Source: an uncultured bacterium
Lineage (GTDB): Bacteria; Krumholzibacteriota; Krumholzibacteriia; LZORAL124-64-63
Direction of reading: 5' to 3'
Length of the DNA stretch: 36,375 nt
Assembly: GCA_903912525.1 (NCBI GenBank)
Contig: CAIWHK010000023.1
Span: 1-36,375, forward strand
This document shows positions 2,030 through 35,585 of this stretch, in pieces; within the stretch, counting starts at the first letter, position 1; the number at the start of each line of letters is the position of its first letter. The notes under the pieces were generated by a model. That model saw nothing but the letters and a program-made list of their open reading frames with translations. It was not told where the DNA came from and did not search any database. A program made the translations under genes and the position numbers.

Positions 2030-3346
2030 TCAGCCCAGCGGCGGCACCGGTTCGGGCATCGCACAGGCGCCGAGGGCTGCGCCGGGATCCTTCAGGCCGT
2101 GGCCGGTCACCAGAACCGCCACGCGGTCGCGGTCGCCGATAAGACCCTGTTCGCGTGCGGCCAGGGCCCCGGCCATGCCGGCCGCGCCGGAAGGTTCGGC
2201 GAACACGCCGGCGCGCGAGGCGAGGTCGACGATCGTGCGGATGATGGCTGCGTCCGGCGTCGCGATGAACGCGCCGCCGGTGGCCGCCACGTAGCGCCAG
2301 GCCTTCACGCGGTTGCGCGGCACCCCGACGCTGATCGAGTCGGCGATGGTGTCGGGCACCACGGGGGTGATCGCGTCGCGGATGGCCGGGCCGGACATGG
2401 TCGCCTGCCCGCCGCCGCAGCGCGCCCAGGCCGCGGCCAGCGGCGAGGCGCCGGCCGCCTGCACGCCGATCACGCGCGGCACGCGGTTGATCAATCCCAG
2501 CGCATGCAATTCAATGAACGCCTTGGCCGTCGACGAGACGATGCAGCCGTCGCCGACCGGCACCAGCACCACATCGGGCAGGTCCTCGTTCGAGGTGAAC
2601 CCGCGCGTCAGGTCCCAGGCCAGTTCCAGCGCCGCCGTCTTCTTGCCCTCGACCAGCAGCGGGTTGTGCCCGCAGTTGCGGCTGTACCAGTTGTTCTTCG
2701 CGATCGCGACCAGCGACAGCTCGAACGCCTGGTCATAGGTGCCGTCCACGCGGATGACGTGCGCGCCGTGCAGCAGCAGCTGCGCCAGCTTGCCGCGCGG
2801 CGCCGCCGCCGGCACGAAGATGGTGGAGCGGAAGCCGCCCCGCGACGCCAGCACGGCCAGGCTGGCCGCCGCGTTGCCCGTCGAGGCGCAGGCCAGGTGG
2901 TCGAGACCCAACTGGTGGGCGCGCGCCATGGCCACGGCCGCGGCGCGGTCCTTCAGGCTGGCCGACGGCAGCGACGTGTCGTCCTTGATGACCAGCGAAT
3001 GCAGGCCCAGGTGGCGGGCCAGGCGCGGGGCGGGCAGCGGTGCCGTGCCGCCGACCGCCCACGCCGGATGGATCGCCGCGGGCGCCACCGGCAGCAGGGA
3101 AGAGAACCGCCACAGGCCGCGGGCAATGTCGCCGCCCTCGACTTTCAAGCGCACCGCGGTATCGCCCGCGCGCTCGTACGCAGCGTCGAGGATGCCGTCG
3201 ATGCCGCAGTCGGCGCAGACGAATCCTGCGTACACCGTGTCGTACTCGCGCCCGCAGACCACGCAGCGGCAGCCGACCCACCCGGGGTTGGCCGCCACCG
3301 GCGGCAGCGCTTCGCGGATTCCTTCCCTGTTGCCGTGCGCTTCCAT
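2030..3346 (-). CDS. Threonine-synthase-like PLP enzyme (fold type II), possible YgeX substitute
   Basis: The 438-residue protein belongs to the threonine synthase/tryptophan-synthase-beta PLP family. The N-terminus carries a zinc-ribbon-like element, with C28-x2-C31 and C44-x2-C47. The PLP lysine is K132 in SASLKDRA, followed by the phosphate-binding loop STGNAAASLAVLASRGG and a GDGCIVSS glycine segment. Known: such enzymes carry out beta/gamma-elimination or replacement on amino acids; threonine synthase converts O-phosphohomoserine to threonine. The gene starts 4 nt after the ygeW stop with no clear Shine-Dalgarno of its own, suggesting translational coupling. In the known urate/purine clusters YgeW is accompanied by YgeX, another fold-II PLP enzyme (2,3-diaminopropionate ammonia-lyase). 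I therefore infer that this protein may act on diaminopropionate or a related product rather than make threonine, though ordinary threonine synthase remains possible. Confidence 0.8.
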   Translation of the reverse strand: MEAHGNREGIREALPPVAANPGWVGCRCVVCGREYDTVYAGFVCADCGIDGILDAAYERAGDTAVRLKVEGGDIARGLWRFSSLLPVAPAAIHPAWAVGGTAPLPAPRLARHLGLHSLVIKDDTSLPSASLKDRAAAVAMARAHQLGLDHLACASTGNAAASLAVLASRGGFRSTIFVPAAAPRGKLAQLLLHGAHVIRVDGTYDQAFELSLVAIAKNNWYSRNCGHNPLLVEGKKTAALELAWDLTRGFTSNEDLPDVVLVPVGDGCIVSSTAKAFIELHALGLINRVPRVIGVQAAGASPLAAAWARCGGGQATMSGPAIRDAITPVVPDTIADSISVGVPRNRVKAWRYVAATGGAFIATPDAAIIRTIVDLASRAGVFAEPSGAAGMAGALAAREQGLIGDRDRVAVLVTGHGLKDPGAALGACAMPEPVPPLG

Positions 3347-8200: not shown

Positions 8201-9280
8201 CTAGTCCGGTTTGAGCTCCGCGACCGGTTTGAAGACGTTCTTCAGCATGTACTCGGTCACGACCCAGATCTCCGGCTGCCCGCGCACGCGCATCCAGGTG
8301 CCGCCCGGCTTGTCACCGACGGCAGGCCGGTCGTTCCCGAACTCCAGCGCCAGTTGCCGGCCGTCGGCCATGACCAGCACCGCCTCGCGCGACGGCGTGT
8401 CCAGGCCATAAGCGGCCGCCGGCGCGCCCGGGTTGTCCAGGTCGTTGGCATGGACGCTGACCAGGGCGTTCAACACCGGGTCGACCTTGGCCTTGGCCAG
8501 GTTCGGTGACTTGCCGTTGGGTGCCTTGCCGTTGGGTGACTTGCCGTTGGGTGACTTGCCGCCGCCCGTCTTCCACTCCCAGGTCGCGCGTGCCGAGGCC
8601 ACCGTGGCCGAGTCGGCGCCCGCCGGCACCTCGGCCGAAAGGACTTTCACCAGTTCGCGCGTCCCGTCCTTGTCCCGCAGCCGGATCACATCGACCTGGG
8701 CGCGGTCCTCATGCACCGCCATCAGGTCCAGGAACGCCCGCGGGAGCGGCGTCTCCGGCGCGCCGTAGATGCCCAACTGGGATAGCACGCCCGACGGCGT
8801 GATGTAGACCTCGTCCTTGCCGGGCAGCTTCACGAAGTTGCCGGCGGCGCCCTCCGGACGGTTACCCACCTCGAGGGCGAGGACTTCGCGCCCGTCCTTG
8901 CCGAACGCGCGGATGGTCACCGCTGCGTCGGCGGCCAGCCCGTAGTCCGCGAGGACCTCGCGATTGTCCGAACGGTATTCGCCGGTCAGGTCGGCCAGCG
9001 CCTTCAGCAGTCCGTCGATGCGCTCACGGCTCGCGCGCGCGTTCCAGGCCGACCGGACGCGCCAGCCGTCAGGGCCCGCCTCGAGCACCACCGCTTCCGG
9101 CTCCGCGCCGCGCCCCAGGACGATGCGGCCGAGATCGTCGGCCTTGTATTCCCCTGCCACCAGCACGGCCGTCGCGTCCCGGGACGTCGCGCGACGGTGC
9201 CCGACGGACTGCAGGACGCTGATCACGATGAGCGCGGCGACGACCGCCGCAAGGATCGCCAGGGTCTTCCTGCTCAACAT
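8201..9280 (-). CDS. DUF4340-domain membrane-anchored protein
   Basis: The protein (359 residues) starts at ATG 9278-9280, chosen for the GAGGAGG 8 nt upstream. One N-terminal membrane segment (about residues 4-24) is followed by an extracytoplasmic domain of the DUF4340 type. DUF4340 proteins are regularly encoded directly after GldG-like proteins and their ABC transporters, but their role is unknown. Near residues 240-260 there are four tandem copies of a five-residue unit (GKSPN, one reading GKAPN and the last truncated at SPN-L), which look like a flexible linker inserted in the domain. The underlying DNA repeat is listed separately. The gene starts 13 nt after the GldG-like stop and is the last of a four-gene unit ended by the hairpin at 8147-8173. 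Confidence 0.8.
   Translation of the reverse strand: MLSRKTLAILAAVVAALIVISVLQSVGHRRATSRDATAVLVAGEYKADDLGRIVLGRGAEPEAVVLEAGPDGWRVRSAWNARASRERIDGLLKALADLTGEYRSDNREVLADYGLAADAAVTIRAFGKDGREVLALEVGNRPEGAAGNFVKLPGKDEVYITPSGVLSQLGIYGAPETPLPRAFLDLMAVHEDRAQVDVIRLRDKDGTRELVKVLSAEVPAGADSATVASARATWEWKTGGGKSPNGKSPNGKAPNGKSPNLAKAKVDPVLNALVSVHANDLDNPGAPAAAYGLDTPSREAVLVMADGRQLALEFGNDRPAVGDKPGGTWMRVRGQPEIWVVTEYMLKNVFKPVAELKPD
8501..8560. repeat. Four tandem 15-bp repeats inside the DUF4340 gene
   Basis: Four consecutive 15-bp units occupy 8501-8515, 8516-8530, 8531-8545 and 8546-8560. The last two are identical (gttgggtgacttgcc), the second differs at one base and the first at one base. Being a multiple of three, copy-number changes would keep the frame and only lengthen or shorten the GKSPN linker. 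Confidence 0.92.
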
Positions 9281-9293
9281 GGCGGCGACCTCC

Positions 9294-11027
9294 TCAATGC
9301 CCGGCGGCATCACGCCGCAGGCTGTCGCGATAGCGGGCCGCTTCCTTGCGGCGCATGCCGCTGCGGGTGATGCCGTACCCGGCCAGGACCGCCGGCACCA
9401 GAAGTACCGTGAACAGGCGCCAGAACATCTTGGCCTGCGCGTCGACCGGCTTGATGACCCGGCTGGTCAGCGCCTTGGCGCGGATGCTCAGCAGCGCCTG
9501 CGAACCGGCCAGGTAATCAACGCCGTTCATCATCAACAGGCCGTTCTGCATGGCGCCGATGAGGTTGTCGTCGAACATGCGGGCGCAGCCGACGACCAGC
9601 AGGCGTCCTTCCTGCGGCGACACCGGACCCGGCTCGCCCATGGCCGCGCCGGTTGCCTGGGGCCACGCCGGCGCGGCGCGTCCGGCCCAGGTGTCCGGGA
9701 AGATGCCCTCGACCATCACGGCCAGCGGCTGCTCGCCGAGCATCTTCTTGCCCGCCGGCGTGATCATCGGCGTGGTGACCGGGCCGGCGCTCCAGGGCTC
9801 CTGCCAGCAGTCGGGACTGCTGCTCATCAGCGTCGTGGCCTTCAGGTGCGCCGCCGACAACTGTGCGGGGTCGGTCACGACCGAAGTGCCCCACAGGTAG
9901 AACAGCTGGCCGATGCGGTTGACCACCGGCGAGGCCGCGTTCATCTGCGTCCCGGCCACGCGGATCTGCATCGGCACGCGCACGGGCTCGCGCGTCTGCA
10001 CGCGCAGGCCGCCGAGGTTGACCTCGCGCGGCAGCTCGATGACCTCCATCGCCGAGTCCATGAAGTGGTCCTCGGTCACGGTGACGCCGAAGGCGGCGAG
10101 CATCGGCTCGAGCCCGGTCGTCACATCCTGGCCGTTGATGGACCAGCCGCCGGCCGGCGACGGCGCGTAGCCGTACTCGTGCGCCTGCAACGCCAGCACC
10201 ACCGGCGTGCCGCGGGTCAGCACGCGGTTGATCTCCCAAACCTGCCGTTCGTTCAGCGGGGTGTTGGCCATGACCACCATCAGGTCGATGTCCGCCGGCG
10301 GCGTCGACATCGGCGTCAGGTCGACGGGCACGACCTCGTAGTGCTCCTGCTGCAGCATGTCGCGCAGCTTGGAGAACTGCTCCTGCGGTTCGGGCGGCTG
10401 CATGCCCTGCTGCAGGTACATCATGGCCACCTGGCGGTCGATCTCCTTCTTCGGCCCGAACACGGCCACCCGCGGGGCTTTCGCGCGCGTCAGGCGGTAG
10501 ACGGGGCCGATGATGTCCTGTTCCAGCGAGGCCAGGCTCTGCGGAAGGATCTGCGGCAGCACCTCTTCGGGCTTGTCCTTGTAGGCGATCGTCATCGCGC
10601 TCCAGATGAGCTTGATGCCCATCTCGTCCTTCTCGATGGACTGCACCTGGAACGGGCGGATGCCCTTGCCGCCAAGGGTCTTCTGCAGGTCCTCGTCGTC
10701 CTGCGGGTTGTAGACCGTGAAGACGAGCTTGCCCTTGGCCACCTGCTCGAAGTTCCGCATCTGCTCGGTGACGTCGCGCTCGAGCGTCCGCAGTTGCGTG
10801 GGCATCTTGTCCGACGGCGTGATATACAGCTTCACCTGCACCGGCACGTCGAGGCCCTTGAGCACCGTCGCCGCCGCCGGCGACATCGTGAACAGCCGGT
10901 CGCGCGTCAGGTCCAGTCGCGCGCCGGGCAGGTTGCCCAGCACCGAGACCAGGAAGAAGACGATCACGGACAGCAGGACGGCCGCCACGCCGAAGGTCAG
11001 GCGGAAGTTGCGTCGCTTGTTGTTCAT
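9294..11027 (-). CDS. GldG-like ABC-system accessory protein (ABC-type_uncharacterised domain)
   Basis: This 577-residue protein starts at ATG 11025-11027, which overlaps the permease stop by one base (TGATG); GGAGG lies 8 nt upstream. It has a membrane segment at about residues 10-34 (FRLTFGVAAVLLSVIVFFLV), a long extracytoplasmic region beginning LDLTRDRLFTMSPAAATVLKGLDVPVQVKLYIT-like as in GldG, and a C-terminal membrane segment (LFTVLLVPAVLAGYGI) before a charged tail. Known: GldG pairs with GldA and GldF in Bacteroidota gliding; homologues are widespread outside gliding bacteria, where they accompany ABC-2 exporters of unknown cargo. Motility is not implied here, since no other gld or spr genes are present. 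Confidence 0.85.
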   Translation of the reverse strand: MNNKRRNFRLTFGVAAVLLSVIVFFLVSVLGNLPGARLDLTRDRLFTMSPAAATVLKGLDVPVQVKLYITPSDKMPTQLRTLERDVTEQMRNFEQVAKGKLVFTVYNPQDDEDLQKTLGGKGIRPFQVQSIEKDEMGIKLIWSAMTIAYKDKPEEVLPQILPQSLASLEQDIIGPVYRLTRAKAPRVAVFGPKKEIDRQVAMMYLQQGMQPPEPQEQFSKLRDMLQQEHYEVVPVDLTPMSTPPADIDLMVVMANTPLNERQVWEINRVLTRGTPVVLALQAHEYGYAPSPAGGWSINGQDVTTGLEPMLAAFGVTVTEDHFMDSAMEVIELPREVNLGGLRVQTREPVRVPMQIRVAGTQMNAASPVVNRIGQLFYLWGTSVVTDPAQLSAAHLKATTLMSSSPDCWQEPWSAGPVTTPMITPAGKKMLGEQPLAVMVEGIFPDTWAGRAAPAWPQATGAAMGEPGPVSPQEGRLLVVGCARMFDDNLIGAMQNGLLMMNGVDYLAGSQALLSIRAKALTSRVIKPVDAQAKMFWRLFTVLLVPAVLAGYGITRSGMRRKEAARYRDSLRRDAAGH

Positions 11028-11770
11028 CAGAACTTCCTCCCTTCCAGCCACAGGGCGTTGAGCACCAGGAACACGGCGGTCAGGCCCAGGAAATAGGCCA
11101 GGTCGGCGGCGCCGACCACGCCGCGCAGCATCATCTCGTAGTGGCTCGACAGGCCCAGGTAGTTCTGCAGCAGCGAGCCCAGCCCGGGCACCCAGCCGTC
11201 GATGGTCGCGGCCACCGCCGGGATGCCGAGCACGAACAGGAGGAAGCAGGCCATGATGCCGAGGATCACGGCGGAGATCTGGTCACGCATCAGGCCGCTG
11301 GTGAACGTCCCGATGCCCAGGTACAGCGCGCCCAGCAGCGCCGCGCCGAGGTAACTGCTGAAGATGGCGCCCCCGTCGGGGTTCCCCAGGGCGCCGACCA
11401 TGATCGGCAGGGTCAGCGTGCCGGCCAGCGCCACCAGGTAGAAGGCCAGCGCGGCCAGGTACTTGCCCAGCATGACGTCGGCGGTGCGCATCGGCAGCGT
11501 CATCAGCAGTTCAAAGGTGCCCAGGCGCTTGTCCTCGGCCCACAGGCGCATGCTGACGGCGGGAATGAAGAAGATCAGGAAGAAGGGCAGGTTCCCGAAG
11601 AAGCCGCGCAGGTCGGCCGCCCCGCTCAGGAAGAAGCCCGTCATGAACAGCCCCGCGTTCAGCACCAGGAAGGCGATGATGAAGATGTACGCGATGGGGC
11701 TGTTGAAGTACGCGGCGAACTCGCGCCGGAAGATGGTCAGGCTGCCCCGCATGTTCAGGTCGTTGTGCAT
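11027..11770 (-). CDS. ABC-2 type transporter permease (GldF-like)
   Basis: The 247-residue protein has six predicted membrane segments. It begins with a cytoplasmic RREFAAYFNSPIAYIFI segment that is typical of GldF/NosY-type permeases. The motif LWAEDKRLGTFELLMTLP, characteristic of this ABC-2 subfamily, lies near residues 76-93. The ATG at 11770 sits one base after the TGA of the ATPase gene and uses an AAGGAGG inside the end of that gene, so translation of the two is coupled. Together with the ATPase and the GldG-like protein it should form an inner-membrane exporter; the cargo is unknown. Confidence 0.88.
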   Translation of the reverse strand: MHNDLNMRGSLTIFRREFAAYFNSPIAYIFIIAFLVLNAGLFMTGFFLSGAADLRGFFGNLPFFLIFFIPAVSMRLWAEDKRLGTFELLMTLPMRTADVMLGKYLAALAFYLVALAGTLTLPIMVGALGNPDGGAIFSSYLGAALLGALYLGIGTFTSGLMRDQISAVILGIMACFLLFVLGIPAVAATIDGWVPGLGSLLQNYLGLSSHYEMMLRGVVGAADLAYFLGLTAVFLVLNALWLEGRKF

Positions 11771-11771
11771 C

Positions 11772-12722
11772 TCACGCCACCTCCTTGAGCCCGCGCGCCC
11801 GGCGGGTCAGCGCGATGAAGGTGTCCTCGAGCGAGTAGGGGGCCTCGTGCAGTTCGGTCAGTTGCCAGCCGCGCTCGCGGGCCAGGCGCTCAATCGAACC
11901 GACCAGGTCGTCGCTGAACGGGCCGCGCGCCTCGAAGCGGCAGCCTTCGGTCGCGCGCAGCGGTTTCAGTTCGGTCACCACGGGCAGCGAGCGCAGCGCC
12001 GCCTCGACCGCGCCGGCCTCGGCCCGCGCGCCGATGAAGACGCGGTTGGTGCCCATCGCCCCGCGCGACAGGTCGGCCACCGTGCCGTCGGCGATGATGC
12101 TGCCTTCGTTGATGATCACCACGCGGTCGGTCACCGGGCTGACCTCCTGCAGGATGTGCGTGGAGAAGATGATTGTCTTGTGGCCGGCCAGGCTCTTGAT
12201 CAGGTCGCGGATGCCCAGGATCTGCAACGGGTCCAGTCCGCTGGTGGGTTCATCCAGGATCAGGATGTCCGGGTCGTGGATCAGGGCCTGCGCCAGTCCG
12301 GTGCGCTGCTTGTAGCCCTTGGACAGTTCGCCGATGTTCTTGCGGTACTCGGTACGGAGGCCGCAGGCCTCGACGCACCAGTCCAGACGTTCGCGCAGGC
12401 GCGCGCCCTCGAGGCCGCGGGCCCGGCCGACGAAGGTCAGGTACTCATGGATGTTCATGTCCAGGTACAGGGGGACGTTCTCGGGCAGGTAGCCGATCCG
12501 CCGCCGCACTTCGAGGGGTCGCTCCAGGACGTCGATCCCATCGACCGTCACCGCGCCGCTGTCGGGCGCCAGGAAGGTCGTGATGATCTTCATGGTCGTG
12601 CTCTTGCCGGCGCCGTTGGGACCGAGGAAGCCGAGGATCTCTCCCCGGTTGATCCGGAACGATACGTCGTCGAGCGCTTTCATGGTCCCGAAGCTCTTGG
12701 ACAGGCCGCGAACTTCGATCAT
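11772..12722 (-). CDS. ABC transporter ATP-binding protein (GldA-like)
   Basis: The 316-residue protein is a standard ABC ATPase. Walker A GPNGAGKST is at residues 34-42, the signature LSKGYKQR (in place of LSGGQ) near 137, and Walker B ILILDEPTSGLD just beyond. A C-terminal extension of about 90 residues follows, as in drug/lipid-type ABC-2 ATPases. It is the first gene of the exporter operon (ATPase, permease, GldG-like, DUF4340). A GAGGAG precedes the ATG, and a TAAAAT hexamer lies about 35 nt upstream, but I see no convincing -35. The gene order is the usual one for this exporter type. Confidence 0.9.
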   Translation of the reverse strand: MIEVRGLSKSFGTMKALDDVSFRINRGEILGFLGPNGAGKSTTMKIITTFLAPDSGAVTVDGIDVLERPLEVRRRIGYLPENVPLYLDMNIHEYLTFVGRARGLEGARLRERLDWCVEACGLRTEYRKNIGELSKGYKQRTGLAQALIHDPDILILDEPTSGLDPLQILGIRDLIKSLAGHKTIIFSTHILQEVSPVTDRVVIINEGSIIADGTVADLSRGAMGTNRVFIGARAEAGAVEAALRSLPVVTELKPLRATEGCRFEARGPFSDDLVGSIERLARERGWQLTELHEAPYSLEDTFIALTRRARGLKEVA

Positions 12723-20384: not shown

Positions 20385-21362
20385 TTGACCAAGCGTTCCG
20401 CGCACCCGTCACACCTGTCGCGCCCGCCCCGCTTCCCGACGCTGACCATGCTGCTGATCGGCGCGTTCTGCATCTCGTGGGCGCCGATCTTCGTGAAGAT
20501 CGCCGGGCGCCAGGAACTCGGGCCGACCTCGATCGCGTTCTGGCGCCTGCTGATCGGCGCCATCACGCTCTTCGCCGCCGCCGCCGCCATGCGCCGGCCG
20601 CTGCGCCTGCCGCCCCGGGCCACGGCGCTGGCACTGCTGGGCGGGGTCATCTTCATGGCCGACCTCTTCCTGTGGCACCGTTCGATCAAGCTGGTCGGCG
20701 CCGGCCTGGCCACGATCTTCGCCGCCACGCAGGTCTTCAACACGGCCGGGCTCAACTGGCTGTTCCTGGGCGAGCGCCCGCGTGGGCGTTTCTTCGTCGC
20801 GGCGGCCGCGGGCCTGGTGGGCGTGGCGCTGGTGGCGGGCGTGGGCAGCGGCATCGCCATCGCGGGCGACTATGGGCGCGGCGTGGCGATGGGCCTGGGC
20901 ACCGGCCTGTGCTACGGCGGCTACCTGCTCAGCACGCGGCAGCTGGGCCGGCACGAACCGCGGCTGTCGCCGATCACCATCGTCGCCTGGCTCTCGCTGG
21001 GCGGCGCCGTCGCCAGCGGGCTGGTCTGCCTGGCCGAGCACGATGCGTTCATGCCGCGCACGCCGCTGGCGTGGTGGATGCTGGTCGCGCTGGGGGCGGG
21101 AATTCAGGGCGGCGGCTGGTGGGCCATCGCCACGGCGCTGCCGCGTGTCAGCGGCGCCACGGGCGGGCTGGTGCTGCTGCTGCAGCCGGTGCTGGCCACC
21201 GTGTGGGGCTGGCTGCTGTTCGGCGAACGGCTGACGCCGATCCAGATGGCCGGCGCGGCATTGACGCTCGGGGCCATCTACGCAGGCACGCTGGGGCTCG
21301 GGTCGCTGGCGCGGGGGCCTCAGCGGCCCAGCCAGCCGATGCCGCCGCCGTCGCGGTCGTAG
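20385..21362 (+). CDS. EamA-type DMT-superfamily transporter
   Basis: The 325-residue protein has ten predicted membrane segments in two EamA repeats. The first holds FVKIAGRQELGPTSIAFWRLL and FLGERPRGRFF; the second ends with LLLQPVLATVWGWLLFGERLTP. Both GER-type motifs are hallmarks of EamA permeases, which export metabolites or amino acids across the inner membrane. A TTG start at 20385 lies 4 nt after the NFACT-R gene with GGAG 8 nt upstream, so it is the fourth gene of the arsR unit. Whether it moves an arsenic compound is unknown. Its last 43 nt overlap the end of the convergent deaminase gene. Confidence 0.88.
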   Translation: MTKRSAHPSHLSRPPRFPTLTMLLIGAFCISWAPIFVKIAGRQELGPTSIAFWRLLIGAITLFAAAAAMRRPLRLPPRATALALLGGVIFMADLFLWHRSIKLVGAGLATIFAATQVFNTAGLNWLFLGERPRGRFFVAAAAGLVGVALVAGVGSGIAIAGDYGRGVAMGLGTGLCYGGYLLSTRQLGRHEPRLSPITIVAWLSLGGAVASGLVCLAEHDAFMPRTPLAWWMLVALGAGIQGGGWWAIATALPRVSGATGGLVLLLQPVLATVWGWLLFGERLTPIQMAGAALTLGAIYAGTLGLGSLARGPQRPSQPMPPPSRS

Positions 21363-22660
21363 GCGACGCACCCGCCGACGATCGTCGCGCGCGCCGGCTC
21401 GGGATGGCACAACACAAGCGCGGCCACCGGGTCGTCCGCGCCGTCGTAGCCGATCGCCTCGAGGTCGAACACCGCCAGGTCGCAGGCCTTCCCCGGCTCG
21501 ATGGCGCCGACATCGTCCCGGCCGAGGCAGCGCGCGCCGTCCAGCGTCGCCATCTCCAGCACTTCCTGCACCGTCATCGCCGCCGCGCCGCCCAGCACGC
21601 GGTGCAGCAGCAGCGCCTGCCGCAGTTCGGCCAGCAGGTTCGAGCTGTCGTTGCTGGCCGAGCCGTCGACGGCCAGGCCCACCGGGCAGCCTGCCCGGCG
21701 CAGGTCGCGCACGCGGCAGATGCCCGAGCCCAGGCGCATGTTCGAGGTGGGGCAGTGGGCGATGCCCGTGCCCGCCCGGCCCAGCCGCGCGATCTCGTCG
21801 TCATCGAACCAGATGCCGTGCGCCAGCCACACGTCCGGTCCCGTCCAGCCCACCGATTCGAGGAAGTCCAGGGGCCGCGAACCGTAGATCTGCCGGCAGT
21901 AGTCGTTCTCGTCGCGCGTCTCGGCCAGGTGCGTGTGCAGGCGCACGCCGTGATGGCGCGCCAGTTCGGCCGTGCGGCGCATCAGGTCCGGGTCGACCGA
22001 GAACGGCGAGCACGGGGCCAGCGCGATGCGCACGAGCGCGCCCGGTTGCGGATCGTGCCATTTGCCGATGACGCGTTCGCAGTCGGCCAGGATGGTATCG
22101 GCGTCCTGCACGACATCGTCGGGCGGCAGGCCGCCGTCCTTCTGCGAGCGGCTCATCGAGCCGCGCGTGGGATGGAAGCGGATGCCGGTCTTCCGGGCGG
22201 CCTCGATCGTGATGTCCAGCAGTTCAGGCGACGCGGCGCGCGGAAACAGGTAGTGGTGGTCGGTGGTCAACGTGCAACCGGAGCGCAGCAGCTCCTGGCA
22301 GCCGACGACGGCCGCGCGGTGGAAATCCTCGTTGTCCAATTGCGCCCACACCGGATACAGCGTGCGCAGCCAGGGAAACAGTTCGCTGTCGACCGCGCCC
22401 CGCCAGGCGCGCGTGCGCGTCTGGTACAGGTGATGGTGCGTGTTCACCAGGCCGGGCAGGACGACGCAGCCGGTGGCGTCGAAGCGCTGGTGGTCCTGCG
22501 CCAGGATCCCGTCCACGAACACCGGCACCGGGCCGTGTCCCACGGCGGTGACCAGTCCGTCCCGGGCGGCCACCCAGCCGTCCCGGAGGACCTCGCGCGC
22601 GCCGTTCATGGTGACCAGCGTCGTCGCATTCTCGAGCAGGAATCTCTTGTTGTCGGCCAT
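21320..22660 (-). CDS. 8-oxoguanine-deaminase-like amidohydrolase
   Basis: This 446-residue member of the guanine deaminase/chlorohydrolase branch starts at ATG 22658-22660 (GGGGAG just upstream). Metal-site elements are H75-x-H77 in LVNTHHHLYQT, LHTHLAET, the WLAHGIWF histidine and GLAVDGSASNDSSNLLAE with its catalytic aspartate. The NTHHHLYQT-TRA and SASNDSxxLLAExRQALLL patterns are those I associate with bacterial 8-oxoguanine deaminases (EC 3.5.4.32), which convert 8-oxoguanine to urate. An N-terminal 65-residue extension is open but has no domain. It shares a divergent promoter region with the molybdenum hydroxylase operon, which supports a joint role in making or consuming urate. A hydroxyatrazine hydrolase or another aminohydrolase cannot be excluded from sequence alone. 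Confidence 0.8.
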   Translation of the reverse strand: MADNKRFLLENATTLVTMNGAREVLRDGWVAARDGLVTAVGHGPVPVFVDGILAQDHQRFDATGCVVLPGLVNTHHHLYQTRTRAWRGAVDSELFPWLRTLYPVWAQLDNEDFHRAAVVGCQELLRSGCTLTTDHHYLFPRAASPELLDITIEAARKTGIRFHPTRGSMSRSQKDGGLPPDDVVQDADTILADCERVIGKWHDPQPGALVRIALAPCSPFSVDPDLMRRTAELARHHGVRLHTHLAETRDENDYCRQIYGSRPLDFLESVGWTGPDVWLAHGIWFDDDEIARLGRAGTGIAHCPTSNMRLGSGICRVRDLRRAGCPVGLAVDGSASNDSSNLLAELRQALLLHRVLGGAAAMTVQEVLEMATLDGARCLGRDDVGAIEPGKACDLAVFDLEAIGYDGADDPVAALVLCHPEPARATIVGGCVAYDRDGGGIGWLGR

Positions 22661-22688
22661 GTCTCTCCCCGGCGTGGAGGGTGCGAAG

Positions 22689-22716
22689 TTGATCGCCCGG
22701 CAGGTTACATTATACT
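22689..22716 (+). promoter_or_regulatory. Promoter of the molybdenum-hydroxylase operon
   Basis: TTGATC (22689-22694), a 16-nt spacer and TATACT (22711-22716) lie about 40 nt before the ATG at 22755. The -10 box overlaps the -10 of the divergent deaminase promoter. Confidence 0.65.
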
Positions 22717-22737
22717 GGTCCGGTGAGCCCGACCCAA
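22709..22737 (-). promoter_or_regulatory. Divergent promoter of the 8-oxoguanine-deaminase-like gene
   Basis: Minus-strand TTGGGT (plus 22732-22737), a 17-nt spacer and a perfect TATAAT (plus 22709-22714) predict a start near 22702 and a leader of about 42 nt. Its -10 shares six of eight bases with the opposite promoter, so polymerase cannot occupy both at once. Confidence 0.65.
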
Positions 22738-22754
22738 GGCCAAGGGGGAACGTG

Positions 22755-23651
22755 ATGTGGGAACTCAAGGAATACCGTATCGCCGGCAGCGTCGGCGAGG
22801 CGGTGGCGATGATGCGGCGCGGCCCTGGCAAGGGCGTGTACATCGCGGGGGGCACGGACCTGTTCCTGTTCCCGCCGGCCTGTGACTATGTCGTGGACGT
22901 CAACCACGCGGGCATGTCGAGCATCGCGCGCACGCCGGACGGCGACCTGTTCATCGGGGCCGCGGCCACGCTGCACGACATCGCCACCAGCCCCCTGGTG
23001 ACCGGCTTCGCGGGCGGCCTCGTCTCCGCCGCGGCCGCGCACTGCGGCAACCGCCCGGTGCGCACGACCGCGACCATCGGCGGCAACCTCTGCAATGCGC
23101 TTCCTTCGGCCGATCTGGCGCCCGCGCTGCTGGCGCTGGACGCCGTCTGCTACATCGCCGACGAGGACAGCCAGGAAAGCCTGCCGCTGGAGGATTTCTT
23201 CACTGGCCCGCGCCGCACCGTGTTGGACGGCCGGTTGCTGGTGGGGATCGCCCTGTCGGCCGCGGCCGGCGAGCGGCGCGCGCAGGCGCGGCGCCTGACA
23301 CGCTCGGCCGAGGACATCGCCCTGGTGCAGGTGGCCGTGGCGCTGGAGATCGAAGGGGACCGCGTGGGTGCCGCGCGCATCGCCTTGGGTTCGGTGGCGC
23401 CGGTGCCGATGCGGGCGATGCTGGCCGAAGCGCTGGTCGAGGGCGAACTGATCGCCAACCTGGATCCCGACCGCCTGGCCGACGCCGCGGCCATCGCCGC
23501 CGCGGAATGCGATCCCATCGACGACCACCGCGCGAGCGCCGAGTACCGGCGCGAGATGGTGGGCGTGCTCACCCGCCGGCTGCTGGCGAGTGCGCTGGCT
23601 GCGGCGACGGACATGTCGCCGGACTCCGGCAACGAGGGAGGCGCCGCGTGA
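22755..23651 (+). CDS. Xanthine-dehydrogenase-family FAD-binding subunit
   Basis: The 298-residue protein is the FAD subunit of a three-subunit molybdenum hydroxylase (XdhB/CoxM/YgfM type). The FAD-binding motifs are YIAGGTDLFLF near residues 33-43 and RTTATIGGNLCNALPSADLAPAL near 105-127, followed by the C-terminal CO_deh_flav_C domain. Known: this subunit passes electrons from the iron-sulfur clusters to NAD+ or another acceptor in the cytosol. ATG 22755 follows an AGGGGGAA ribosome-binding site; GTG 22752 is in frame and also possible. It is first in its operon and its stop overlaps the next start (GTGA). The order FAD, 2Fe-2S, Mo is common for XDH-type hydroxylases. Confidence 0.93.
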   Translation: MWELKEYRIAGSVGEAVAMMRRGPGKGVYIAGGTDLFLFPPACDYVVDVNHAGMSSIARTPDGDLFIGAAATLHDIATSPLVTGFAGGLVSAAAAHCGNRPVRTTATIGGNLCNALPSADLAPALLALDAVCYIADEDSQESLPLEDFFTGPRRTVLDGRLLVGIALSAAAGERRAQARRLTRSAEDIALVQVAVALEIEGDRVGAARIALGSVAPVPMRAMLAEALVEGELIANLDPDRLADAAAIAAAECDPIDDHRASAEYRREMVGVLTRRLLASALAAATDMSPDSGNEGGAA

Positions 23652-24160
23652 AGATCGCCGTGAAGCTCAACGGGCGGAACCGGGAGTGGGAGGCGGCTCC
23701 GGGAGCCACGCTCCTGTCGGTGCTGCGCGACGGCCCGCAGGAACCGCGCATGACGTCGGTCAAGCGCGGTTGCGAGACCGGCGACTGCGGCGCCTGCACG
23801 GTGCTGCTGGACGGGCAGCCGGTGAACAGCTGCGTCGTGGCTGCCGCGCGCGCGCATGGCCATGCCGTCACCACGATCGAGGGCCTGCTCGGCGACCCGC
23901 TGATGACCATGCTGCAGGCGGCACTGGTCGAGCACGCGGCCGTGCAGTGCGGCTACTGCTCGCCGGGCATGCTGGTCAGCCTCTACCACCTGCTCAGGGA
24001 GTGCCGTGCCGCCGGCACGACCCCGGACGACCACGCCATCCGCGAGGCGCTGACCGGCAACCTCTGCCGCTGCACCGGCTACGTGAAGCCGGTCGCCGCC
24101 GCCGCCGCCGTGGCCGCGGCGCTGGCCGCCATGCGCAGCACGGAAGCGGGGGCGCGATGA
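23648..24160 (+). CDS. Xanthine-dehydrogenase-family 2Fe-2S subunit
   Basis: The 170-residue protein has the two expected cluster domains. A plant-ferredoxin-like N-terminal domain contains CETGDCGACTVLLDG and a later C in VNSCVV. A C-terminal helical domain has CGYCSPGM and NLCRCTGY. All eight cysteines are present. It starts at GTG 23648, overlapping the FAD-subunit stop by 4 nt, and its own stop overlaps the ATG of the molybdenum subunit (ATGA). It relays electrons between the molybdenum centre and FAD. An alanine-rich tail near the C-terminus is longer than usual. Confidence 0.95.
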   Translation: MKIAVKLNGRNREWEAAPGATLLSVLRDGPQEPRMTSVKRGCETGDCGACTVLLDGQPVNSCVVAAARAHGHAVTTIEGLLGDPLMTMLQAALVEHAAVQCGYCSPGMLVSLYHLLRECRAAGTTPDDHAIREALTGNLCRCTGYVKPVAAAAAVAAALAAMRSTEAGAR

Positions 24161-26478
24161 CCGACTTCGTGAACAACCGCGCCGGCGGCCCGCAGGTCGG
24201 CCGCAACGTCGCCAAGATCGACGCCTTCAAGCTGGCCCGCGGCGAGCCCGTCTACACCGACGACGTGCACCCGGCCGGCATGCTCTGGGCCAAGGTGCTC
24301 GGTTCGCCGCACGCGCACGCGCGCATCCTCGACGTCGACGCCGCGCGCGCGCTGGCGCTGCCGGGCGTCGTGGACGTCGCCTGGCACAGGCAGGTCAAGC
24401 CGATCCTGCACACCCGCGCCGGCCAGAGCCATCCCGAGCCTTCCCCGTACGACACGGTCATCATGCCGGACAAGGCGCGGCACATCGGCGACCGCGTGGC
24501 CGTCGTCGTGGCCGAGTCGCTGGCGATCGCCGAGCAGGCGCTCGGCCTGATCGACGTGAAGTACGAGGTGCTGCCGGCCCTGACCGACATGGACGAGGCG
24601 CTGGCGCGCACCGACGTGCTGGTGCACGAGGTCGCCGACCCGCGCGGCATCGCCGAGGGCGGCCGCAGCAACGTGGCCGCGCGCATCGACAAGCAGGTGG
24701 GCGACGTCAGTGCCGCGCTGAAGACGTGCGACCACGTCGTCGAGCGCACCTACTGGCTGCCGCGCGTGCAGGCCAGCCACATCGAGCCGCATGTTGCCAT
24801 CGCCTGGCTGGACGAGGATGGCCGCCTGGTCGTGCGCACCAGCACGCAGGTGCCGTTCCACCTGCGGAGGATCCTGGCGCGCATCCTCGAGCTCAAGGAA
24901 GCGGATGTCCGCGTGATCAAGCCGCGCGTGGGCGGCGGCTTCGGCGACAAGCAGGAAATGGTGATGGAGGACCTGGTCGCCCTGATGGCGTTGCGCACGA
25001 AGCGCCCGGTGCGGCTCGAGTTCACGCGGGTCGAGGAACTGACCAGCGCCCGCTGCCGCCACCCGCAGCGCATCGTGATGACGACCGGCGTGATGAACGA
25101 CGGCACGATCATCGCCAACCGCATGAACGTGACGGCGGACACCGGCGCCTACGGCAGCCACGCGCTGACCGTGCAGGGCAACACGGGGCAGAAGGTGCTG
25201 CCGATGTACCCGTGCGCGAACATCCACTTCCAGGTCACGTGCCTGTACACGAACAACCCGATCAGCGGCGCCTTCCGCGGCTACGGCGCGCCGCAGGGCT
25301 GCTTCGCGCTGGAAAGCCACATCGACGAGGTGGCGAAGGTCCTGGGCATGGACCGGCTCGAACTGCGCAGGAAGAACCACATCCGGCTCGGCGACACCGA
25401 CCCGCTGTCGGCCAAGCTGGGCGAGGGGCGCGAAGGCCTGTCCCGCGTGATCCGCAGCACTGGCCTGGAAACGGCCATCGAACTCGGCTGTGAGGCCATC
25501 GGCTGGACGAAGAAGCGCCCGCCGTCGGCGCCGCACCTGAAGCGGGGGCTGGGCATGGCGCTGGCCATGCAGGGATCGGGCATCGCGGGCGTGGACTGGG
25601 GCGCGGCCACCGTCAAGTTGAACGAGGACGGCTCGGTGAACCTGCTGGTCGGCGCGACCGACATCGGACAGGGTTCCGATACGGTGTTGGCGCAGATGTG
25701 CGCGCAGGAGCTGGGTATCAGCTACGAGAAGGTGCGCGTACTCAGCTCGGACACCGACCTGACGCCGTTCGACGTGGGCGCCTATGCGTCGAGCACGACT
25801 TACGTCTCCGGGGGCGCGGTGGTCAAGGCGACGCAGCAGATGCGCGACCAGTTGGCGGCCGTGTTCGCCGAGAAGTGGGCGTGCGCGGCCGGGGAGGTCG
25901 TGTTCGGCGACGACAACGTCAGCTGCGGCCCGGGCAAGGCCATGACGATGGCGGAGTTGGCCAGCCATGCGCTCTACGCGGCCAAGATGCAGCCGGCGGC
26001 TACGGCCAGCCACATGTCCAACGAGTCGCCGCCGCCGTTCGCGGCCCAATTCGCCGATGTCGAGGTGGACTCGGGAACCGGCGAGGTCTTTTTGCGTAGA
26101 TTCGTCTCTGCGGTCGACTGCGGGACGCCCATCCACCCCGACCTGGTCGAGGGCCAGATCGAGGGGGCCGTCTCCCAGGCGATCGGCTACGCCCTGTTCG
26201 AGGAAGTCATCGTCGATGGGGCCGGCAAGGTGAAGAACCCGAACTTCCTGGACTACAAGATCGCTTCGGCGCTCGACATGCCGGAGATGGTCACGATCCT
26301 GGTTCCCACCGTGGAACCGAGCGGCCCCTACGGGGTCAAGGCGGCAGGCGAGGTGCCCATCGACGGGCCCGCGCCGGCCATCGTCAATGCCATCTGCGAC
26401 GCGGTGGGCGTCCGGCTCTGCCGGATCCCTGCCACCCCTGAACGCGTGTGGCGCCAGATCAAGGAGGCAGGCGAATGA
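24157..26478 (+). CDS. Xanthine-dehydrogenase-family molybdopterin-binding (catalytic) subunit
   Basis: The 773-residue protein contains the aldehyde oxidase/XDH a/b hammerhead domain (about 20-130) and both molybdopterin-binding domains. RVGGGFGDKQE lies near 258, SGAFRGYGAPQG near 371, GATDIGQGSDTV in the second half, and the catalytic glutamate is E732 in VKAAGEVPIDGPA. Known: the family hydroxylates purines or N-heterocycles using water; in the purine clusters the homologue is XdhD. The operon position opposite an 8-oxoguanine deaminase and the presence of ssnA, ygeY and ygeW in the window make a purine substrate likely (xanthine/hypoxanthine or a urate-pathway intermediate), but this cannot be fixed from sequence. 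The ATG overlaps the previous stop, and its stop overlaps the start of the LpoB-like gene. Confidence 0.93.
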   Translation: MTDFVNNRAGGPQVGRNVAKIDAFKLARGEPVYTDDVHPAGMLWAKVLGSPHAHARILDVDAARALALPGVVDVAWHRQVKPILHTRAGQSHPEPSPYDTVIMPDKARHIGDRVAVVVAESLAIAEQALGLIDVKYEVLPALTDMDEALARTDVLVHEVADPRGIAEGGRSNVAARIDKQVGDVSAALKTCDHVVERTYWLPRVQASHIEPHVAIAWLDEDGRLVVRTSTQVPFHLRRILARILELKEADVRVIKPRVGGGFGDKQEMVMEDLVALMALRTKRPVRLEFTRVEELTSARCRHPQRIVMTTGVMNDGTIIANRMNVTADTGAYGSHALTVQGNTGQKVLPMYPCANIHFQVTCLYTNNPISGAFRGYGAPQGCFALESHIDEVAKVLGMDRLELRRKNHIRLGDTDPLSAKLGEGREGLSRVIRSTGLETAIELGCEAIGWTKKRPPSAPHLKRGLGMALAMQGSGIAGVDWGAATVKLNEDGSVNLLVGATDIGQGSDTVLAQMCAQELGISYEKVRVLSSDTDLTPFDVGAYASSTTYVSGGAVVKATQQMRDQLAAVFAEKWACAAGEVVFGDDNVSCGPGKAMTMAELASHALYAAKMQPAATASHMSNESPPPFAAQFADVEVDSGTGEVFLRRFVSAVDCGTPIHPDLVEGQIEGAVSQAIGYALFEEVIVDGAGKVKNPNFLDYKIASALDMPEMVTILVPTVEPSGPYGVKAAGEVPIDGPAPAIVNAICDAVGVRLCRIPATPERVWRQIKEAGE

Positions 26479-34095: not shown

Positions 34096-35499
34096 TCAGT
34101 TGTCCTTCGTCTGCGAAACGGGGTCCAGGGAGCGCGGCAGGAACATGCCGCCCGGTTGTGTGGCGCACAGCGCGCCGTCCTCGACGACGCGCACGCCGCG
34201 CAGCCAGACATCGGTCACGCGACCGACCGCCGGCCGCCCGTCCCACAGCGACCCGGCGACGTCGCTGTCGCCCAGCGGGCGCCAGGTGTACCGGGCCTCG
34301 GGATCGAACAGGATGACATCGGCATCCAGGCCCGGCGCGAGCCGGCCCTTGCGCCCGGCCAGGCCCATCAGGGCCGCTGGTCGCTCGGCGAACGCCTCCT
34401 GCCAGCGCCACGGCTCGAGCTTGCCCTCGGCCACGGCCAACGTGTGGCTGAACACCAGGCGCTCGCCGACGCCGCCGCAGCCGTTGGGCACCTTTGGGAA
34501 GCCGGCCCCTGCGGCCCGCTGCTTGGCCGCCAGCGTGAACTCGCAGTGGTCGGTCGACAGGATGTCGATGGCGCCCTCGGCCAGGCCGGCCAGGAGCGCG
34601 GCGCCATGTCCGGCCGGACGCAGCGGGGGCGAGCAGATGGCCGCCAGCGCGGCGTCCTCACCCGTGCGGTAGCAGGCATCGTCGGCGAACAGGTGGTGGA
34701 TGCAGACCTCGCCGAAGGCCGCAGGGCCGGTGTCGCCGCGATCGGCCCGCGCGCGCCGCAGCGTCGCCAGCGTGCCGGCCGCGCTCATGTGCACCACCAG
34801 CAGGGGACAGCCCGCCTGCCGGGCAAGGTCCAGGGCCAGCGAGGCGGCCTGCACCTCGGAATCGAGCGGATGCGCATCCGGGTGCCAGCGCGGCGCCGTG
34901 CGGCCGGCGGCCAGCAGTTCGGCCTCGACGGTGGCGTTCATCTCGCCGTCCTCGGCGTGCACCAGCAGCAACCCGCCGGCGGCAGCGACGGCCGTCATCA
35001 GGTCGGACATCCGCTCGGGCATCAGCATCAACCGGCCCTTATAGGCCAGGAAGCCCTTGAAGGTCGGGACGCCGGCGGCCAGCAGCGCCGGGATCTCGGC
35101 CAGGCGCGCCGGCAGGGCCTCGACGACGGTCACGTGCAGGCCGTAGTCGCAGAGCACGCGACCGTCGGCCATCGTGCGCCAGCGGGCCACCGCCGACGGC
35201 AGGGACTCGCCGAAATCCGGGTTGGCGAAGTCGATCACCGTGGTCGTGCCGCCCAGGAGCGCCGCCGCCGAACTCTCGCGCCAGCCCAGGCTCGCCAGCC
35301 CGCCGCCCAGCGGCATGCCGAAGTGGGTGTGGGCGTCGATGCCGCCCGGCAGGACCCACCGGCCGGTCGCGTCGATGTCGCCGTCGGCGACCGGACCGGG
35401 GGCGGGGGGCTCGATCGCCGCGATACGCCCGCCCTCGATGACCAGGTCCGCCGCCTCGGGGCCGACGGTGGTAAGGATTTTGCCGCCTTGAATTCTCAT
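34096..35499 (-). CDS. hyuA: Dihydropyrimidinase/hydantoinase-family amidohydrolase
   Basis: The 467-residue protein starts at ATG 35497-35499; longer in-frame starts add no domain. The cyclic-amidase metal site is complete. H57-x-H59 lies in GIDAHTHFGMP and the carbamylated lysine is K148 in GVPTFKGFLAYKG. Histidines lie in LLLVHAEDGE and LLVVHMSAAG, and the final aspartate in ILSTDHCEF. Known: dihydropyrimidinases, D-hydantoinases and allantoinases share this arrangement. The homologue in the E. coli purine region is HyuA/YgeZ, one of the genes used in anaerobic urate breakdown, which hydrolyses a five-membered hydantoin ring. The substrate here cannot be fixed. The ribosome-binding site is weak (GAGAG 13 nt upstream). 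It heads a unit with MsrC and GT9, away from the ssnA, ygeW and XDH units. Confidence 0.88.
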   Translation of the reverse strand: MRIQGGKILTTVGPEAADLVIEGGRIAAIEPPAPGPVADGDIDATGRWVLPGGIDAHTHFGMPLGGGLASLGWRESSAAALLGGTTTVIDFANPDFGESLPSAVARWRTMADGRVLCDYGLHVTVVEALPARLAEIPALLAAGVPTFKGFLAYKGRLMLMPERMSDLMTAVAAAGGLLLVHAEDGEMNATVEAELLAAGRTAPRWHPDAHPLDSEVQAASLALDLARQAGCPLLVVHMSAAGTLATLRRARADRGDTGPAAFGEVCIHHLFADDACYRTGEDAALAAICSPPLRPAGHGAALLAGLAEGAIDILSTDHCEFTLAAKQRAAGAGFPKVPNGCGGVGERLVFSHTLAVAEGKLEPWRWQEAFAERPAALMGLAGRKGRLAPGLDADVILFDPEARYTWRPLGDSDVAGSLWDGRPAVGRVTDVWLRGVRVVEDGALCATQPGGMFLPRSLDPVSQTKDN

Positions 35500-35585
35500 A
35501 GGTTCATGAATACTCTCTGTTTGCCTGATCGACCACCTAATTCCCCCGCTCACCCCTGGCCGGCCTTTACAGGAGAGGACCCGTC

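Follow-up and report, generated by a model that had tools for sequence, protein, structure and literature searches.

The biochemistry of the reductive pathway of urate (purine) degradation has been resolved only in recent work, and a survey of its distribution counted any PF00291 protein as YgeX (PMC12507026). Threonine is not mentioned in that survey and, given the PF00291 definition, a replacement of YgeX by a threonine synthase-like (ThrC-like) protein was not separated there. Non-orthologous enzymes are known to fill other steps of the pathway in different lineages, namely UacX, UacY and an F420-dependent reductase (PMC12507026). Two groups of PLP enzymes are the closest described counterparts of the protein considered here. 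YgeX of Escherichia coli (NF006058; PDB 4D9G), a PLP enzyme of fold type II, has the same place in the cluster and the same proposed reaction, whereas threonine synthase (TS) of the Thermus thermophilus, Bacillus subtilis and Mycobacterium tuberculosis type (PDB 1V7C, 6NMX and 2D1F; TIGR00260) is the nearest in fold and, among PDB entries, in sequence. The T. thermophilus and Microcystis TSs have been reported to deaminate threonine (PMC12172450), so that an ammonia-lyase built on a TS scaffold would be a short step. We found no paper linking threonine synthase to the reductive urate pathway; most subscription journals were not covered, and a description elsewhere is not excluded. Here, we describe a ‘threonine synthase’ gene of about twenty bacterial phyla and of haloarchaea that, as inferred from sequence and gene neighbourhoods, very probably encodes the last enzyme of this pathway.

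The window, by which we mean the whole stretch of 36,375 nucleotides analysed, belongs to a metagenome-assembled genome (MAG) that is 97.75% complete (G000; our handles G, C and L stand for genomes, contigs and loci). On its minus strand, the order of transcription is an SsnA-like amidohydrolase (8179-6656; best family NF005540, 332 bits, cut-off 444), YgeY, the M20 hydrolase of the urate pathway (6592-5387; NF009555, 520 bits, cut-off 321), a lamin-tail-domain protein (5221-4580), a YgeW-like catabolic carbamoyltransferase of 325 aa (4328-3351) and the PLP protein (3346-2030). The true start of the SsnA-like gene is probably internal to the ORF, the profile match running from residue 65-83 on. 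Directly after this gene lie GldA/GldF/GldG-like ABC transporter genes and a DUF4340 gene (8201-12722, minus strand), and in two relatives of the window’s locus (L068 and L069, from G046 and G072) YgeY directly abuts the carbamoyltransferase, in contrast to the window with its intervening lamin-tail gene. Elsewhere in the window are an 8-oxoguanine deaminase, the product of which is urate (21320-22855, minus strand; NF006055, 632 bits, cut-off 532), an XdhB/YgfM-like FAD subunit (22440-23651, plus strand; NF043083, 163 bits, cut-off 310; PF00941), whose start is internal with a profile match from residue 106 on, an XdhA/XdhD-like molybdenum hydroxylase subunit (23590-26478, plus strand; NF043082, 665 bits, cut-off 780; Pfam MoCoBD_1 and MoCoBD_2) and a HyuA/dihydropyrimidinase-like amidohydrolase (34096-35553, minus strand; TIGR02033, 349 bits, cut-off 393; 34% identity to E. 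coli HyuA).

A YgfK-like reductase of 617 aa is encoded on another contig of G000, unlinked to the window (C72, L243:9205-11058; 430 bits, cut-off 835), and matches positions 1-399 of the YgfK profile and, in addition, a C-terminal piece; its arrangement recalls clostridial UacX/PydA, both of which lack the FAD domain. A carbamate kinase homologue is found on a third contig (C32). The window thus meets the criterion for a urate cluster, which is co-location with ssnA, ygeY, ygeW, hyuA, xdhD and ygfK homologues, the ygfK-like gene being elsewhere in the genome. With these genes, G000 has a candidate for every step of the pathway described in PMC12507026 except that of YgeX, of which none was found in this genome. 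Several steps score below the family cut-offs and are candidates only, and, as this includes the window’s SsnA-, HyuA- and Xdh-like genes, the upstream steps in G000 are themselves inferred.

The carbamoyltransferase and PLP genes are separated by 4 nt (‘TAG cggc ATG’) without a Shine-Dalgarno-like sequence, in agreement with the preliminary description, which had not given the strand. Its naming of the neighbour as ygeW stands in part: identity to E. coli YgeW is 35%, its motifs ‘SWxYxPSYxxPxSVPQ’ and ‘IVYPKSW’ recur and the YgeW-type Pro-rich loop (knot-loop motif) is present, but the protein is short and stays well under the cut-off of the NCBIfam YgeW family (217 versus 453 bits). The top NCBIfam family is ornithine carbamoyltransferase (OTC), again below cut-off, and the putative enzyme is best called a short YgeW-like relative. 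That it might be the sole OTC of the genome was rejected, as separate OTC and aspartate carbamoyltransferase (ATC) genes, identified from their sequences, are present elsewhere in G000. The same carbamoyltransferase sits beside the PLP gene in 18 of 30 loci in our first set (the window’s own included), covering several genera and two families, a pairing that is far from chance. Relatives of it adjoin carbamate kinase in L071, L089, L098 and L134, as expected for a catabolic carbamoyltransferase producing carbamoyl phosphate. A second, divergent carbamoyltransferase (24-33% identical to that of the window) occurs in L096, L098, L099, L106, L109, L112, L113, L123, L125 and L152, where its neighbour is carbamate kinase, the first carbamoyltransferase or the ThrC-like gene; this second enzyme may be one of the ‘pseudo-ATCases’ of PMC4016543. 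No YgeY was seen near several of these loci, in which both carbamoyl groups are perhaps removed phosphorolytically.

The PLP protein itself (438 aa, ATG start) was correctly recognised in the preliminary description as a fold-II protein with a Cys2-Cys2 N-terminus: its PALP domain scores 216 bits, the PLP lysine is K132 and the two CxxC pairs are C28/C31 and C44/C47. An AF2 model, built from an alignment of 50 locus relatives without the Haloarcula row, has a pLDDT of 93.8, and every one of its best structural matches is a threonine synthase (TM of about 0.87 on the target at some 30% identity). YgeX of E. coli comes only at rank 43 with 16% identity; it lacks a zinc-ribbon-like N-terminus of this kind and, with a score of 36 bits for the window protein against the NF006058 cut-off of 276, is non-orthologous to it. 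The protein also fails the threonine synthase family TIGR00260 (136 bits, cut-off 167.1), a cut-off that wider members of its clade can pass. Two further assignments were rejected, namely cysteate synthase (61 bits, cut-off 325) and IlvA-type threonine deaminase (at most 76 bits, cut-offs of at least 378), G000 having an IlvA of its own.

Where the protein departs from threonine synthase can be read directly from an alignment of 49 clade members, 17 true TSs and 10 paralogues. T88, S155, R160, Q164 and N188 (Thermus numbering) are invariant in all 17 true TSs, and E. coli ThrC, although a distant type of TS, likewise has all five. We take these positions to include the substrate phosphate site seen in the T. 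thermophilus inhibitor complex (1V7C), a tentative label that is backed here by conservation only. In the clade, T88 is replaced by A and N188 by D in every one of the 49 members and Q164 by K in 48; R160 is kept in none of the 49, being mostly T, L or M, and S155 is kept once and is otherwise T, C or A. The clade has invariants of its own: Y204, R223, D266, D336 and S337 (window numbering). Judged from these residues, a TS-like site without R160 and with an acid in the place of N188 would seem to bind O-phosphohomoserine poorly; by inference, it might accommodate a substrate that carries an additional ammonium group. Two other proteins, from Symploca (L210) and Nitriliruptoraceae (L222), score as thrC without T88, R160 and N188 and also without the clade residues, so that TIGR00260 seems to mix several families.

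A tree of zinc-ribbon TS-like proteins, the test suggested by the preliminary description together with a count of the ygeW neighbours given above, places the 49 clade members, Haloarcula included, on one side of a branch with support of 100/94, separate from the true TSs (100/99). The R160-bearing zinc-ribbon paralogues (L040-L059) form another separate clade (100/100) and served as controls. The phenomenon is far wider than the window to which that description was confined. A scan of genome contigs yielded 80 clade loci from about twenty phyla as labelled, among them Chloroflexota, Planctomycetota, Myxococcota, Bipolaricaulota, Acidobacteriota, Elusimicrobiota, Bacteroidota, Spirochaetota, Actinomycetota, Cyanobacteriota and Bacillota. 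Counting homologues of ygeW, ygeY, ssnA, ygfK, hyuA, xdhD, yqeA or guaD within 10 kb, at least one pathway gene is found near 65 of the 80 loci and at least two near 48. The remaining 15 loci, several of them on short contigs, have no such gene nearby. The corresponding figure (at least one) is 19 of 20 for loci of relatives and 0 of 20 for control neighbourhoods, which contain true TSs or R160-bearing paralogues. These counts are not corrected for phylogeny, though they span about 20 phyla. The gene of the clade thus sits with urate genes and not with thr genes.

The proposed replacement of YgeX can be followed within the window’s own family, where 22 genomes carry only the ThrC-like gene, 5 only YgeX, 1 (G064) both and 8 neither (Fisher p=0.016, an optimistic value because of the close kinship of the genomes). 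Clusters of like composition carry either one protein or the other: xdhD-ygeY-ygeW-ygfK-ygeX in G044, with G042 and G040 similar, and ygeY-ygeW-xdhD-ygfK followed by the ThrC-like gene in G060 (L077). Of 50 carrier genomes, most of which belong to other phyla, 46 lack a YgeX match at E<=1e-20 and 4 have one, three above cut-off and one weak. YgeX was never found beside the ThrC-like gene in the loci examined. Some loci (L149 and L156) hold most of the E. coli gene set with the ThrC-like gene and no YgeX; in the genome of L156, YgeX is present on another contig.

We therefore propose, without an assay and with good confidence, that this PLP protein is the lyase that ends reductive urate (purine) degradation, making pyruvate from 2,3-diaminopropionate and standing in for the non-orthologous YgeX. 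The preliminary description had put forward such a replacement, and the signature residues, the separate clade, the gene context, the near-exclusivity with YgeX, the swap and the separate TSs of many carriers all speak for it. Support is strong for the role in the pathway, whereas diaminopropionate (L or D) as the exact substrate and the beta-elimination chemistry are inferred. In the proposed model, XdhD-like and YgfK-like enzymes would reduce urate, SsnA- and HyuA-like amidohydrolases would open the rings, the YgeW-like carbamoyltransferase and YgeY would take off the two carbamoyl groups, and the ThrC-like enzyme would convert 2,3-diaminopropionate to pyruvate and ammonia in the stead of YgeX. 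Diaminopropionate is the expected substrate because both carbamoyl groups would already be gone, removed by a carbamoyltransferase with YgeY or by a pair of carbamoyltransferases. Conversion from a TS would have removed phosphate-binding residues, and the charged R223, D266 and D336 may help to hold the substrate.

The lyase could instead act one step earlier in the same pathway, on a mono-ureido intermediate (albizziin or 3-amino-2-ureidopropionate), and eliminate the ureido or carbamoylated amino group rather than ammonia. Some clusters without a recognisable YgeY near the gene (e.g. L098, L109 and L134) would fit this, but many others have YgeY, another N-carbamoyl hydrolase or a second carbamoyltransferase, which would yield diaminopropionate, and YgeX itself acts on diaminopropionate after YgeY (PMC12507026); we regard the earlier step as unlikely. 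More doubtful still is an enzyme that, in genomes such as G000, serves both as pathway lyase and as threonine synthase. The preliminary description had named two findings that together would refute a replacement, the absence of another TS from the genome and full conservation of the phosphate site, of which only the first applies. No other recognisable TS was found in G000, where the window protein is the sole TS-like one among six PALP proteins (the other five read as IlvA, three cysteine-synthase or CBS-like proteins and TrpB), so that genome content does not exclude a second, TS function; G000 also has a homoserine dehydrogenase match, and 10 of the 50 carriers have only one TIGR00260 match. 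Against this, the TS signature residues are lost in G000 as elsewhere, no homoserine kinase (ThrB) scores above cut-off in this genome (a non-GHMP kinase was outside the search) and no homoserine dehydrogenase match was obtained in 12 of 23 carriers of the window’s family, which indicates that the ThrC-like gene is kept where no TS precursor is apparent; absences in MAGs are soft evidence. Three members of the same family (G046, G060 and G061) carry an E. coli-type ThrC elsewhere in the genome, and 15 carriers from other phyla possess a separate TS of the T. thermophilus type. In 14 of these the NSxNxxRxEGQK motif is intact; for the 15th (L215), the assignment rests on the residue table and on 63% identity to the TS of Thermus. 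That the protein is an ordinary housekeeping threonine synthase placed in the cluster by chance, as its fold, its best database name and the NCBI name thrC of the Haloarcula member might suggest, is scarcely tenable and was rejected, given a urate neighbourhood that recurs in about 20 phyla and in none of the controls, the lost signature residues, a score below the TS cut-off and the separate TS of many carriers.

Relatives of the proposed diaminopropionate lyase are also encoded on haloarchaeal plasmids, where they are annotated as thrC (L231-L234: Haloarcula marismortui pNG700, H. hispanica pHH400 and Haloterrigena turkmenica pHTUR01). The haloarchaeal relative is about 43% identical to a Bdellovibrionales clade member, and the clade residues were confirmed in the H. 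marismortui protein; the H. hispanica member is HAH_RS18750 (WP_023843016). The Haloarcula protein scores 231 bits with TIGR00260, above the cut-off of 167, which explains its name. Neighbours on these plasmids include SsnA-like and HyuA/allantoinase-like amidohydrolases, an F420-dependent LLM reductase, a D-aminoacylase (as UacY), an N-carbamoyl amidohydrolase and molybdenum hydroxylases. A nucleobase symporter, selD, yqeB and yqeC are further present in H. marismortui, and an F420 reductase (npdG) in H. turkmenica; family identities of the neighbours were tested in H. marismortui only. The plasmids would thus apparently hold a complete F420-type reductive urate cluster. The selenium/Mo-hydroxylase region of H. 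marismortui pNG700 was described by Haft and Self in 2008, who listed counterparts of hyuA (ygeZ), yqeB, yqeC and the Mo-hydroxylase for it and left the ygeX row empty for this organism, the ‘thrC’ of the region not being recognised as the counterpart (PMC2276186).

Taken as a whole, the ThrC-like clade of about 20 phyla and haloarchaea is probably a second, separately evolved diaminopropionate lyase, and the haloarchaeal plasmids would then encode a full reductive urate pathway with an F420-dependent reductase and a UacY-type hydrolase. If so, many proteins annotated as threonine synthase would be the last enzyme of urate breakdown, and predictions of threonine pathways that rest on them would be wrong. 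The pathway itself would extend to many more lineages, including haloarchaea, for which tractable laboratory strains exist, and the clade, with its distinct signature residues, would be a clear example of a biosynthetic enzyme converted into a catabolic lyase.
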